A DNA stretch of 64,000 nucleotides from Rubrivirga marina (lineage in GTDB: Bacteria; Bacteroidota; Rhodothermia; Rhodothermales; Rubricoccaceae): positions 2,761,749 through 2,825,748 of the forward strand of contig NZ_MQWD01000001.1 in the NCBI RefSeq assembly GCF_002283365.1, in the 5' to 3' direction. Shown here piece by piece: positions 9,565 to 33,388 of the stretch. A model generated the notes under the pieces. That model was not told where the DNA came from. It searched no databases and was given only the letters and a program-made list of their open reading frames with translations. Every line of letters starts with the position of its first letter. Within the stretch, counting starts at the first letter, position 1. The position numbers were made by a program, and so were the translations under genes.

Positions 9565-10962
9565 ATGAGCCAGAAGCGCATCTACGTCGTCGACGACGAT
9601 CCCAAGATCGGCGAGCTCTTCGCCAAGGTCCTCGGCCGCGACGGCTACGCCACCCAGGGCTTCACCTCGGCCGAGCCGCTCCTGCAGGCCTGCGACGACG
9701 GCCGCCCGCCGGACCTTGTCCTGACCGACCTCATGATGCCCGACGTCTCGGGCATGGAACTCATCGAGGCCCTCCGCGAGCGTGGCCTGACGATCCCCGT
9801 CATCGTCATGACGGCCCACTCGTCGGTCCAGACGGCCGTCGAGGCCATGCGGCTCGGGGCGTTCCACTACCTCCAGAAGCCGGTCAACCTGGAGGAGATG
9901 CGCGCGCTGCTGGCGAAGGCGCTCGACCTCTACGAGGACAAGAAGGAGCTCCAGGAGATCAAGCAAACGCGCAAGAAGGAGCACTCGGTCGGCAAGATCA
10001 TCGGGACGAGCGACGAGGTCCAGGAGGTCCGCGACACGATCGAGACCCTGAAGGACATCCCGAACACGACGGTCCTCGTACGGGGCGAGACGGGGACGGG
10101 CAAGAACCTCGTGGCGCAGACGCTCCACTACGCGTCGAAGTGGTCGGGCGGCCGGTTCATGGAGATCAACTGCGCCGCGCTCCCCGACAACCTCCTCGAG
10201 TCGGAGCTGTTCGGCTACGAGAAGGGGGCCTTCACCGACGCCCGCGCGGCAAAGCCCGGCCTCCTCGAGGTCGCGGATGGAGGCACGCTGTTCCTTGACG
10301 AGATCGACTCGATGAGTCTGGGGCTCCAGTCCAAGCTCCTGAGCTTCCTGGAGAGCCGCCAGTTCCGCCGCCTCGGCGGGACCGACGAGATCAAGGTGAC
10401 CACGCGGATCGTCTGCGCGACGAACGCGAACCTCCAGGAGAAGGTCGCCGAGAAGGAGTTCCGCAAGGATCTCCTGTTTCGGATCAACGTGGTCGCGCTC
10501 CAGCTGCCGCCGCTCCGCCGGATGGGCGCGGACGCGCTCCAGATCGCCGAGAAGGTGGCGGCCGGGTTCGCCTCCGAGTTCGGGAAGCCGTTTGACGGGT
10601 TCACCGAGGCGGCCCAGGAGAAGCTGTTGTCGCACAACTGGCCCGGCAACGTCCGCGAGCTCCGGAACGTCCTCGAACGGGCCCTCATCTTCGCCAAGAC
10701 ACCGACGCTCGACGCCAGCGACCTCGTCCTCCTCCAGACCGACCTCTTCGACGGGGCGGCCTCGGACGCCGACACGTTCCGGTTCCGCGCGAGCGCGACG
10801 CTGGAGGACCTGGAGTACGAGTACATCAAGCACACGCTCGCCAACAACCGGAACTCGTCCTACGCGGACGTCGCCAAGCTCCTCGGCATCTCGAAGAAGA
10901 CGCTCTGGGAAAAGCGGAAGCGGTACAACCTGGACGAGGAAGTCGAGGAGATGACGGCGTGA
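9565..10962 (+). CDS. Sigma-54-dependent response regulator (NtrC family)
   Basis: The 465-residue activator has three domains. The receiver spans about residues 4-115 with acidic pocket D10-D12, phospho-acceptor D55, T83 and K105. The AAA+ sigma-54 interaction domain spans about 143-370, with Walker A GETGTGKN at 174-181 and Walker B LFLDEID at 242-248. A Fis-type helix-turn-helix lies at the C-terminus (YADVAKLLGISKKTLWEKRK). The sigma-54-contacting loop reads GAFTDA (221-226) instead of the textbook GAFTGA, a variant seen in other family members. No histidine kinase is adjacent, so the signal partner is elsewhere. It should activate promoters with -24/-12 elements. Confidence 0.93.
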   Translation: MSQKRIYVVDDDPKIGELFAKVLGRDGYATQGFTSAEPLLQACDDGRPPDLVLTDLMMPDVSGMELIEALRERGLTIPVIVMTAHSSVQTAVEAMRLGAFHYLQKPVNLEEMRALLAKALDLYEDKKELQEIKQTRKKEHSVGKIIGTSDEVQEVRDTIETLKDIPNTTVLVRGETGTGKNLVAQTLHYASKWSGGRFMEINCAALPDNLLESELFGYEKGAFTDARAAKPGLLEVADGGTLFLDEIDSMSLGLQSKLLSFLESRQFRRLGGTDEIKVTTRIVCATNANLQEKVAEKEFRKDLLFRINVVALQLPPLRRMGADALQIAEKVAAGFASEFGKPFDGFTEAAQEKLLSHNWPGNVRELRNVLERALIFAKTPTLDASDLVLLQTDLFDGAASDADTFRFRASATLEDLEYEYIKHTLANNRNSSYADVAKLLGISKKTLWEKRKRYNLDEEVEEMTA

Positions 10963-30702: not shown

Positions 30703-31479
30703 TTACAGCGCGGACTGGCCGAGGCGGGGCGTGAGGTCCGTGAACTCGGTCTCGTCGATGTCGAGGAGTGGCGTCGGCTCCGTGAGGATGACGCCGCCGT
30801 CGTCGGACACCTTCATGCGCGAGAGCGTGATCTGTCCGCCAGGCGTGTCGAGGGTGACGGGCTCGACCCATTGGAACCGGCCCTCATTGCCGCTCTCCAA
30901 GAGAAACGACCACCCCGTCATCGCGCCCGACACTTCGTCGACCTCGATCCAGTAGCGGTCGCCCGGCGTCAGGCCGACGCCGTCGAACGAGAGCGCGAGC
31001 CGGTCCGCGCCGTCGCGCGCCTCGACCGCGCGGCGGACCCCGGGGTCGAGCACCTTGAGGGGCGCCAGCAGCCAGTAGCCGTCGTTGACGAACCGTCCGT
31101 TCGCTTCGACCAGCCTCTCGGCCACCTCAGGCCCGACGAGGGCGACGCCGTTCAGCGCCACCTCGCCCTCCGGCGCGTCCTCATCAAACCGGGAGGGCTG
31201 GAAGACGGCCACGAATACGCTGTCGCCGCCGCCCGGCCACTCCGACCGGACCCGGTCGCCTTGTTTGTCCCAGACGTGGCGAGTCCGAACGACCTCGGAG
31301 GAGTCGCGGACCACGGCCCACTCGAAGGCGATGCCGGGAAGCTCGTTCCATGCCGCGAGCCCGCCGGAGGACTCGGTCACGCGAAAGGCGAGGCTGTCGG
31401 CGGCCGTCTCGAGGCGGGGACTCGACGGGTCGGTGCACGCGGCGAGCAGGAGTCCGAGGCTAAGAAAGAAGATGCGCAT
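30703..31479 (-). CDS. DUF6503-type lipoprotein
   Basis: The 258-residue product has a short lipoprotein signal (LLLAAC at about residues 10-15). A beta-rich body follows: GGLAAWNELPGIAFEWAV, VWDKQGDRVRSEW, YWLLAPLKVLDPG. This pattern of a heme/lipid-handling-like fold occurs in DUF6503 proteins of Bacteroidota relatives. Function is unknown. It is convergent with the M28 peptidase gene, with stops 8 nt apart. The ATG at 31479 starts the signal; an in-frame upstream ATG at 31569 would bury it. Confidence 0.75.
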   Translation of the reverse strand: MRIFFLSLGLLLAACTDPSSPRLETAADSLAFRVTESSGGLAAWNELPGIAFEWAVVRDSSEVVRTRHVWDKQGDRVRSEWPGGGDSVFVAVFQPSRFDEDAPEGEVALNGVALVGPEVAERLVEANGRFVNDGYWLLAPLKVLDPGVRRAVEARDGADRLALSFDGVGLTPGDRYWIEVDEVSGAMTGWSFLLESGNEGRFQWVEPVTLDTPGGQITLSRMKVSDDGGVILTEPTPLLDIDETEFTDLTPRLGQSAL

Positions 31480-31614
31480 CGAGGGGTGAGGCCGTTGGGC
31501 GGGAAAGAGATCGGAGGAGTGGGCTCGGGTGACCATCGGGACGACGGCCCCAAACGGGCAGGGCTCCATGTGGATGAGTGTGGAGATGTGGGCAACTTAA
31601 CGGTCCGTTCATCT

Positions 31615-31643
31615 TGACTCCCCCTGATCTCCACGGTACCATG
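31615..31643 (+). promoter_or_regulatory. Promoter-like element for the candidate RNA
   Basis: TTGACT at 31615-31620 is followed after exactly 17 nt by TACCAT at 31638-31643. This is a good -35/-10 pair, and the TACC start also resembles the TAnnTTnG box seen at the tRNA genes. The first strong hairpin begins 7 nt further on, so transcription would start at about 31650. Confidence 0.5.
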
Positions 31644-31649
31644 GGTCAC

Positions 31650-32305
31650 TGCCTTCGGGCAGACGGCCGCACACGCGGCCACGTTCCTTGAGCTAGTGCG
31701 TCATACGCTGCACGAGGGCTTCCTCGCGGAATGCCCTGCGCGCACCGGCGTCGGCCTTGCCGACGCAGCGGGCTCGTCGCCCTCCGGCCGCCTTCGGGCG
31801 GCCTCCCCAAACGGTCAGTTTTATCGCAGACCCGAGGGGCGACTTGGCGAGCCGGCCGTGCCTCAGATGAAGTGCTCCGGATTTCTCGAGACCCCTGTGA
31901 AACGGGTGACCGACCCGGAGGTGGCATCTGATCCGCACCGCGCGCCCCGCCGGGCTTCGGCCTGGCGGGACGGCACCGACCGCTTCGGCGGTGGGCTGCC
32001 GTGGGTGAGACGTCGCAACGAGGCTTCGGCCCGACCGCGACGCCCCGATTGTTCCGTACAGGAGGTGTCAGCACGAGCGGCGGGAGCCCGGGGATTCGTC
32101 CCCGACGTGACCCGTCGCCCCGTGGTGGCCATTCATGTCGTCGCCAGCCGAGCCCGCGGTTCACCGCGGTCCTCGGACGGTCCACGACGGCCGCCATCGG
32201 CCGACGCACACGGGACGCCAGACCGGAGCTACGGCTTGCGGAACGGCGAACCACTCAGAGGAGCCCGAACGGGGGCCCATCTCTTGCGGTGGGCCCCCGT
32301 TCACT
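31650..32305 (+). ncRNA. Candidate structured non-coding RNA of about 650 nt, family not recognised
   Basis: Perfect hairpins follow one another. CTGCC-TTCG-GGCAG is at 31650-31663, GGCCGC-ACAC-GCGGCC at 31666-31681, and GCGTCGGC-CTT-GCCGACGC at 31749-31767. GGCCGCC-TTCG-GGCGGCC is at 31787-31804, and a 10-bp stem with a TTCG loop is at 31947-31970. CGGGGA-TTCG-TCCCCG is at 32090-32105, and a CCGCGG/CCGCGG stem inside CCGAG/CTCGG lies at 32149-32177. A longer domain is closed by TCAGATG/CATCTGA (31864-31932) with CTCCGG/CCGGAG inside. At least six loops are C(UUCG)G or UUCG, which is stable only in plus-strand RNA. I find neither RNase P (GAGGAAAGUC) nor tmRNA signatures. The call is an inference from structure. 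Confidence 0.5.
32268..32303 (+). terminator. 13-bp perfect hairpin ending the candidate RNA
   Basis: GAACGGGGGCCCA (32268-32280) pairs completely with TGGGCCCCCGTTC (32291-32303) around a 10-nt loop, followed by ACTGTTTCGG. It is the strongest hairpin of the region. The T-run is short, so it may also be the closing 3' stem of the RNA. Confidence 0.55.
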
Positions 32306-32527
32306 GTTTCGGGCGCCCGGCGGGTCGGCCTCGGTCGCGCCATCGCCGAGGCGGGCGGAACGCGGGGCCCCGCACGCGGCGTTTAGGACGTCGATGCTCC
32401 CCGACCCCGTGCCTCCTCCCGACGACCTCACGCTCCGGCCGCTCGCCCCGGCCCACCTGATCAGCCGAGGGGCGCCCTCCGGAATCAGCCGTCGGTACCG
32501 TCGGCTGGCGAACGCGGAGGGGGCGTG

Positions 32528-33388
32528 ATGGAGACCCCAACGACGACGAGTGAGAGCTCCAGAGGTGTCGGGCGCCGCCGCCGGCGGGGGCCCGTGCTCC
32601 GTGCCCGTCGAGCGTCGGACGGGAGGTCCGGCCAGCGCGCGCGCGCTGCGGTGCCCAACTTCTTCACGCTGATGAACTTGCTGGCCGGGTTCTTCTCGCT
32701 GATCCAGACGGCCGCCGGCAACCTCGAGGCCGCCGCGTGGCTCGTCGTGCTGGCGGCGTTCTTCGACCTGCTCGACGGCCTCATGGCCCGTCTCGTGGGC
32801 GTGTCGGGCGAGTTCGGGGTCGAGCTCGACTCTCTCAGTGACGTCGTCTCGTTCGGCGTCGCGCCGAGCTTCTTGCTGTACGTCTTCGGGCTCCACCAAC
32901 TCGGGTCGATGTGGGGCGGCCTGCTCGCCAGCCTGCCGGCTCTGTTCGGGGCCGTCCGCCTCGCGCGGTTCAACTCGCTCGCTGAGGCCGGCGTGAAGAC
33001 CACTGAGTTCACGGGCCTCCCGATCCCGGCCCAGGCGGGGACCGTCGTGGTTTTCATTCTCACGTTCATCGAGCGGCCGTGGTTCGACGTGCTCGCGCGG
33101 CCCCAGCTCTCGGTCCTCATCACGCTCGTAGTCGGCCTCTCGGCGCTCATGGTGTCGCCGATCTCGTTCCCGGCGCTCCCGCAGCCGAACCCCGCCAACC
33201 TCCGGGCCTACCGCTACCGGTTCCTCCTCTTCCTGCTGGCGATGCTGCTCGGCGTGGTGTTCCAGGAGGAAGGCCTGCTGGCGGCGGCCATCATCTACCT
33301 CGGGTGGGGCCTGGGGCGGGCGCTCATGTGGGCGATCCGCGTCGCGACGGTCGAGGATCCGGACGCGGAGCCCGTGGAGGAACCGTAG
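32528..33388 (+). CDS. pssA: CDP-diacylglycerol--serine O-phosphatidyltransferase
   Basis: PssA makes phosphatidylserine, the precursor of phosphatidylethanolamine, at the membrane. The 286-residue protein has about 40 basic N-terminal residues, the CDP-alcohol phosphotransferase motif from D80 to D105 (D-x2-DG-x2-AR-x8-G-x3-D-x3-D) and seven or eight membrane segments. The ATG at 32528 is preceded by an in-frame GTG at 32525, and either could start. No phosphatidylserine decarboxylase gene is adjacent. It begins about 220 nt after the candidate RNA. Confidence 0.92.
   Translation: METPTTTSESSRGVGRRRRRGPVLRARRASDGRSGQRARAAVPNFFTLMNLLAGFFSLIQTAAGNLEAAAWLVVLAAFFDLLDGLMARLVGVSGEFGVELDSLSDVVSFGVAPSFLLYVFGLHQLGSMWGGLLASLPALFGAVRLARFNSLAEAGVKTTEFTGLPIPAQAGTVVVFILTFIERPWFDVLARPQLSVLITLVVGLSALMVSPISFPALPQPNPANLRAYRYRFLLFLLAMLLGVVFQEEGLLAAAIIYLGWGLGRALMWAIRVATVEDPDAEPVEEP

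Follow-up and report, generated by a model that had tools for sequence, protein, structure and literature searches.

A predicted large structured RNA of the order Rhodothermales and its putative antisense-type small RNA partner

Large structured RNAs are rare in bacteria, and their functions are poorly understood. OLE, GOLLD and ROOL are described as large ornate bacterial RNAs of several hundred nucleotides, highly structured and with poorly understood function (PMC12286853). The RNA presented here, encoded in a stretch of 64,000 nucleotides from Rubrivirga marina (the window), resembles them in being predicted to stand alone, to span several hundred nucleotides and to be highly structured. 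It is unlike them in belonging to a new family without an Rfam match, and in that most of its relatives have a complementary small RNA and DnaA-box-like repeats. The raiA motif, or ModT RNA, is another conserved structured RNA of chromosomal location, with a reportedly broad distribution (PMC11706538). It has been described from other phyla, and differs in this respect from the window RNA, which is without an Rfam match. RNA I and RNA II of ColE1 form a plasmid antisense pair. Like them, the Rhodothermales RNAs would comprise a transcript of ~100 nt with a terminator, complementary to the 5′ part and to a loop of a long structured RNA, whose folding it would steer. Unlike them, the new pair is chromosomal, lies away from the origin in the two genomes tested and shows no primer role; the gene for its small RNA is upstream, in the same orientation and without overlap, and no match came from the plasmid, phage or viral collections searched.

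The reading that we favor, with a probability of roughly 0.6, is that the window encodes a stand-alone, trans-acting large RNA of an undescribed Rhodothermales family, whose folding would be controlled in most relatives by an antisense-type small RNA; transcription, pairing and function are all inferred. Judging from genome comparisons, some half of the genomes sampled from one order encode this uncatalogued RNA, usually with an adjacent small RNA. Two handles on it become available, the RNA partner predicted in most relatives, whose contact sites covary, and a set of upstream repeats resembling replication-protein sites, so that its role is directly testable. Roseithermus sacchariphilus (CP030158.1, complete genome, labeled G015), which has both RNAs, offers a named strain as a starting point. 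The DnaA-box-like repeats, the small RNA of the relatives and the recognition of the window copy as a divergent family member go beyond what the initial annotation had proposed.

Searches of the open PMC literature returned nothing on Rhodothermus structured noncoding RNA, Rhodothermota noncoding RNA or Rhodothermales sRNA, most subscription papers being outside their scope, and in broader searches of it none of the papers listed dealt, by title or abstract, with an RNA of this kind. The main texts of two genome-wide structured-RNA surveys, supplements excluded, contain in a word search no term beginning with Rhodotherm and no Salinibacter. A small-RNA survey of a community containing Salinibacter has been published (PMC7002113). 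Absence from print is not proven. The proposal that the RNA is new agrees with Rfam 15, in which none of 4227 families matches at or above the gathering score; under relaxed settings, all the matches in the region are far below threshold. In ten loci of relatives there was no Rfam match either, and two of these gave none at E values up to 1. The lack of an RNase P or tmRNA signature, which the first reading had pointed out, finds its counterpart in the location of both genes elsewhere in the genome, and a divergent RNase P RNA or tmRNA is rejected on this ground (RNase P at C1:3205368, 190.5 bits; tmRNA at C1:1711132, 152.1 bits). 6S RNA (RF00013) has no match anywhere in the genome that harbors the window (G000), and since the same model misses 9 of 14 control genomes, its absence is not proven; the window RNA departs from 6S RNA in size and branching.

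The RNA is located between a lipoprotein-like gene (30703–31479, minus strand) and pssA (32525–33388, plus strand), both named by the initial annotation and by eye. The promoter assigned to it in that annotation, TTGACT-N17-TACCAT, is confirmed at 31614–31642 of the plus strand; it is the sole promoter-like site in 31480–32524 (shuffle mean 0.0) and is retained in G002 and G001, two genomes of the same genus. The plus-strand RNA of ~655 nt, at 31649–32303, has a 5′ end inferred from this promoter and a 3′ end inferred from the last stem. UUCG loops had been claimed to be concentrated on the plus strand, and indeed the 64-kb window has four perfect TTCG-capped hairpins with a stem of at least 4 bp, all four inside the region, and a single minus-strand equivalent (CGAA-capped), outside it; shuffles of the region contain 0.03 TTCG hairpins on average, and 0 of 1000 reach four. 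The folding energy is below that of all 20 shuffles (z −4.96), and the opposite strand behaves likewise (z −5.00), so that energy alone cannot assign the strand. The region had been judged to lack a credible protein, and a protein gene is in fact ruled out: none of the five indels between G000 and G002, and 2 of 16 between G000 and G001, are multiples of three, substitutions are about evenly spread over codon positions in three long ORFs, and in-frame stops appear in five of the six comparisons of these ORFs with the two relatives. As far as such features can establish it, 31649–32303 is confirmed as a non-coding, strongly structured plus-strand RNA with its own promoter, the transcription of which is inferred.

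At the DNA level, only G002 (89% identity) and G001 (70%) match the RNA over almost its full length in a search of 99 genomes, its own included, and in both it adjoins the same two genes as in the window. G003, of the same genus, has no detectable copy, and its two neighbor genes are on different contigs. A model of the window genus (R3), searched in nine genomes of the family, is convincing only in G000, G001 and G002. The alignment of these three sequences (A1) has a consensus fold of 31 helices and 228 pairs, with 95.0% of 675 cells paired, a percentage that is favored by the derivation of the structure from the same alignment. Compensatory changes, which the initial annotation had proposed to look for in relatives, were found: 30 pairs are changed on both sides, where shuffles give 10.8 (0/500) and sliding of the 3′ partners gives 2–6. 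Compared with column-shuffled alignments (25 for each strand), the A1 fold has a z of −10.5 on this strand and of −12.7 on the other.

According to this fold, two 5′ hairpins, CUGCC-UUCG-GGCAG and GGCCGC-ACAC-GCGGCC (31649–31680, plus strand as all that follow; A1 helices 2 and 3), stand ahead of the closing helix P1. The 5′ strand of P1, GUUCCUUGAG (GUUCCUUGACGCGAC in the relatives, where it is the core motif), is at 31683–31692 and pairs with the 3′ end in folds of six copies; its 3′ strand, CUCAGAGGAGC, is at 32254–32264, in A1 as well as in single-copy folds. P2, also supported by both, joins GUGCGUC (31696–31702, helix 5) to GACGCAC (32203–32209). It is followed on its inner side by a central multi-branched domain (31707–32199, helices 6–28, several with both-side changes), which includes the nested TCAGATG/CATCTGA domain already recognized in the single sequence; its helix (15) has 94.7% of cells paired and both-side changes at three pairs. 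The P3 hairpin domain (32212–32251, helices 29 and 30) is placed between the 3′ strands of P2 and P1. The final stem (32267–32302, helix 31) had been taken as a terminator; the stem itself is there, with 97.9% of cells paired and one both-side pair, while its terminator-like form has no U tract here and a scan finds no terminator, which leaves this as the weaker part of the claim.

In the neighboring genus, G004 has, at the same place, ~450–490 nt of RNA-like sequence together with a promoter-like start. Comparison by blastn of the window intergenic region with that of G004 gave no match, and CGTTCCTTGA plus a few motifs were recognized by eye as common to the two copies. At E ≤0.001, the G004 copy as query retrieved a core of ~40 nt from 25 of 60 genomes, G004 itself included. 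A sequence model of this core (R1, built from 21 copies including those of G000 and G001; threshold E 0.01) has matches in 62 of 114 genomes of the order, reduced to 59 by removal of three weak ones (G052, G064 and G046) that by eye resemble protein-coding sequence and were considered false. The sequence was inspected in 45 of these 59 genomes, and the other 14 are supported by score only. There is one copy per genome, except for a weak second match in G005. A sample of 395 genomes of the phylum gave 23 with a match, 22 of them from the order; a weak core match outside it is at G425:C66:24760-24792 (E 3.4e-4). A pattern scan of GTDB detected 33 loci, labeled Rhodothermales, Rhodothermia, Rubricoccaceae, Bacteroidetes/Bacteroidota or unnamed bacteria, one of which is in the Roseithermus sacchariphilus genome. 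The exact pattern had 0 matches in a viral contig collection, and no match was obtained in phage and plasmid records with the G051 copy as the only query; cargo of a mobile element was discarded for lack of matches in these collections.

In the relatives, GUUCCUUGACGCGAC near the 5′ end pairs with the 3′ end to form P1, and a three-way junction is completed by P2 (GUCUC/GAGAC) and the P3 hairpin, which appears as GGCCUCCC/GGGAGGCC, AACCUCCC/GGGAGGUU or in other forms. In a sequence-only alignment of the core from 46 genomes, 814 of 962 cells are paired, where shuffles give 766; both-side changes number 71, compared with 20 in the shuffles (0/1000). Nine copies (G000, G001, G002, G004, G005, G008, G017, G029 and G039) were omitted from this count because their P2 and P3 could not be aligned by sequence. 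Two loci, L111 and L117, end before the 3′ end, the fuller duplicate of the latter (G068) having been dropped as a duplicate. P1 and P2 occur at corresponding places in the folds of the trimmed G000, G001, G002 and G004 copies; in those of G005 and G017, P1 forms and P2 is absent from the corresponding place. Most copies have a TTGAC...TATAAT-like promoter shortly 5′ of the P1 region. In 26 of 45, by hand count, a hairpin-plus-T-run search detected an end resembling a terminator close to the 3′ strand of P1. In L049 (G005) and L050 (G008), about ten GCUUCGGC-type hairpins are found up to ~380 nt before the core, a row that lengthens the 5′ side in that genus and takes the large RNA to ~1 kb.

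The core sequence of the window genus is altered (CCUUGAGCUAGUGCGUCAUACGCUGCACGAGG). A profile of the 5′ core made without this genus scores E 1.7 in the window and, when G002 and G001 are searched as 2-kb pieces, 0.03, and a better-scoring match at window position 10287 was rejected, as it is inside a response-regulator gene. Because the core sequence has diverged and the profile is not significant, the placement in the family is made through position, promoter context and fold: the window RNA has the P1-P2-P3 core and a promoter with DnaA-box-like repeats upstream. By these traits it is assigned, as a matter of prediction, to an undescribed family of RNAs of ~450–1000 nt of the order Rhodothermales.

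The relatives have, ~170–490 nt upstream of the large RNA and on the same strand, an element of ~100 nt that would encode a small RNA. Its layout is (A)CCUCAUGCCGCCUGG, a hairpin, ACUCAGUCGCG, AUGGGCACC and a terminator, and it is preceded by a TTG...TATnTT-like sequence. CCGTTATTG is found before this small-RNA promoter (e.g., in G015, G019 and G028), twice in some genomes, and is possibly a regulator site; in the window, AACGGTCCGTT is at 31599–31609, immediately 5′ of the −35 element. Strong matches to a covariance model of the small RNA (R2, 26 copies), comprising 48 rows with E 7.3e-7 or better, are confined to genomes with the large RNA. By a hand count that includes several weak scores, at least 53 of 59 genomes have the small RNA within ~500 nt upstream of the large RNA, with contig and strand shared. 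In G091 it is on another contig, and the contig of the large RNA starts 136 nt before the core. The R2 search gave no small RNA, among the matches listed, in G000, G001, G002 and G059. The taxonomic family of the window retains it in other genera (G004:C1:1679333-1679419, G005:C101:6412-6503 and G008:C174:2866-2957), and since it is kept in two other genera of the same family, its absence from the window genus is attributed to loss or strong divergence.

The comparison of the two RNAs, with site tables that cover 45 of 57 non-redundant copies, establishes that the predicted small RNA is complementary to the large one at up to three sites, two of them in the 5′ core and one in a hairpin loop. 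At site A, ACCUCAUGCnGCC of the small RNA faces GGCnGCAUGAGGU of the large RNA; 491 of 585 cells are paired over 45 genomes, with 13 both-side changes against 5.4 in shuffles (0/2000), a count that includes an out-of-register G057 row, which lowers the pairing. Site B, formed by ACUCAGUCGC of the small RNA and GCGACUGAGU of the large one, has 420 of 450 cells paired and nine both-side changes against 3.0 in shuffles (1/2000). Examples of matched pairs are GCAUGAAGC with GCUUCAUGC in G100 and G063, GCGAUGGAG with CUCCGUCGC in G019 and GACUGAAG with CUUCAGUC in G009; the small-RNA variant of G028 misfits site B. Site C is a hairpin 130–240 nt from the 3′ end of the large RNA, with GCCCAU in the loop region, facing AUGGGC of the small RNA, and has matched double changes in G016 and G028 (GCUCAU/AUGAGC) and in G099 (GUCCAU/AUGGAC). 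In the 34 of 45 genomes used, pairing is found at 202 of 204 cells, a value reached by 0 of 5000 permutations, under a loop rule that admitted only G[CU][CU]C[AG]U; in an earlier, less tuned count, 68 of 2000 shuffles were as good. The site is missing or unmatched in the other 11 genomes, four without the small-RNA site and seven without a loop that meets the rule. The window copy has no site C hairpin. The stem of this hairpin carries 26 both-side changes, against 6.7 in shuffles, when the best-paired loop per genome is taken (38 of 55 genomes). A GCUCUGC/GCAGAG match in G063 was dropped as a compensatory case for site C, as conservation of the loop is lacking in that family.

The longest perfect complement between the two RNAs averages 10.1 nt, against 7.7 nt for shuffled small RNAs, and falls within the 5′ core in 40 of 45 genomes. 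Complements of at least 7 nt are present at both A and B in 29 of 45, and at C in 26 of 45. Whole-duplex energies beat all 60 shuffles in just 7 of 45 genomes, with a median z of −0.9. The shuffles are uncorrected for relatedness, and sites A to C were noticed through their complementarity. The matched double changes appear to be the strongest part of the pairing evidence, which comes from sequence comparison alone.

Three DnaA-box-like repeats, TGTGGATGAG, TGTGGAGA and TGTGGGCAAC, are located upstream of the window RNA at 31569–31596 of the plus strand, starting at 31569, 31579 and 31587; TGTGGANNNNTGTGGA occurs once in the window, 0.05 times being expected. Among 57 copies, the 240 nt upstream of the core contain 64 occurrences of TTATCCACA with up to one mismatch (4.7 per kb); the flanks, 145,650 nt in all, contain 15 (0.10 per kb), a density ~45-fold lower. 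The exact TTATNCACA is found 26 times upstream versus once in the flanks. In 12 of the 57 copies no such site was found in these 240 nt. By eye, the repeats are often two to four units of TGTGGAnnnn spaced by ~10–12 nt. They suggest that transcription is tuned by DnaA or a relative of it, binding being inferred from the consensus only.

The mechanism proposed is an antisense-type one, in which the small RNA would base-pair with the large RNA, either nascent or finished. Sites A and B would be contacted in antiparallel orientation and nearly continuously along the 5′ core, with the small-RNA hairpin bulging out, and site C would add a contact with an apical loop. Since the 5′ strands of P1 and P2 fall within sites A and B, pairing there and the folded core are mutually exclusive; for this reason, the small RNA would act during synthesis of the large RNA or during its refolding. 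It would set the share of large RNA that reaches the active fold, DnaA or a DnaA-box-binding protein would tune transcription, and the end function would be exerted by a structured RNA, or by an RNP particle, linked to growth or to the replication state. In the window genus, the small RNA may have been lost or changed beyond recognition, the large RNA being kept with a diverged 5′ core. Such a core without a partner is what would be expected if the partner holds the core sequence constant, which is an inference. The wider proposal, that of a chromosomal two-RNA device inherited as a unit across the order, in which a DnaA-regulated large RNA responsive to growth or replication state would be switched by a dedicated antisense small RNA through a bipartite duplex and a loop contact, is possible but tentative, and we would not give it even odds. 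To our knowledge, regulators of this two-RNA type occur in plasmids only, and not in bacterial chromosomes.

Several other explanations have to be weighed against the stand-alone large RNA. That the hairpins arose by chance in GC-rich DNA, or are the remains of a decaying gene, would fit the high GC and the equally stable fold of the other strand, but it leaves without explanation the covariation in the window genus and in the family, the codon-position-even substitutions, the frame-breaking indels and the conserved promoter, and can be given practically no weight. A cis-regulatory leader or attenuator of pssA or psd is very improbable. It is invited by the position of the RNA, which in the window's family and in f10 is beside psd or pssA: upstream of pssA in the window, G001, G002, G004, G017 and G039, and before a psd-like gene in G005 and G029. 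In a survey of 32 copies, with gene names given by eye from translations and no database search, several other families have a rhomboid-type gene upstream on the same strand and, as the next gene downstream, a convergent HAD-type hydrolase gene on the opposite strand. As the neighbors differ between families while the RNA persists, the RNA is regarded as independent of them, and a pssA riboswitch or leader is rejected, the downstream gene not being constant; the terminator-like ends after the RNA in many copies and the ~220 nt between its 3′ end and pssA also speak against it. The stand-alone large RNA that the initial annotation had put forward is, on the other hand, supported by the conserved fold with compensatory changes, the lack of an Rfam family, its own promoter and the changing neighbors.

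The direction of control between the two RNAs cannot be read from complementarity, which is equally compatible with the small RNA as the effector and the large RNA as a sponge or anti-small-RNA regulator; however, a sponge does not need 400–900 nt of conserved structure, and the window genus retains the large RNA without a detectable small RNA, so this arrangement is unlikely. We are similarly doubtful that both RNAs belong as subunits to a single stable complex, of RNA or RNP type, rather than being regulator and target: up to three pairing sites with a kissing-type loop and the co-occurrence in most genomes would agree with it, but a different core fold would be needed, given that two of the sites, A and B, share nucleotides with the strands of P1 and P2. 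The presence at one locus of DnaA-box-like repeats, a large RNA and an antisense-like small RNA also recalls a replication origin at oriC with a plasmid-type primer RNA and antisense RNA, as in ColE1. This is scarcely credible, in view of the lack of matches in the viral, phage and plasmid collections searched, and it was ruled out by sampled GC skew in the only two genomes tested. In G015, which has the RNA at 0.19 Mb, the skew flips at 1.0–1.2 Mb, near dnaA (0.92 Mb); in G032, with the RNA at 1.12 Mb, the flip is near 0.5 Mb and dnaA is close by (0.42 and 0.61 Mb). As the flip and dnaA are far from the RNA, the locus is not the origin in either. Two genes with a Bac_DnaA domain are present in 6 of 10 genomes (G012, G026, G032, G041, G062 and G063), and G000, G015, G017 and G019 have one.
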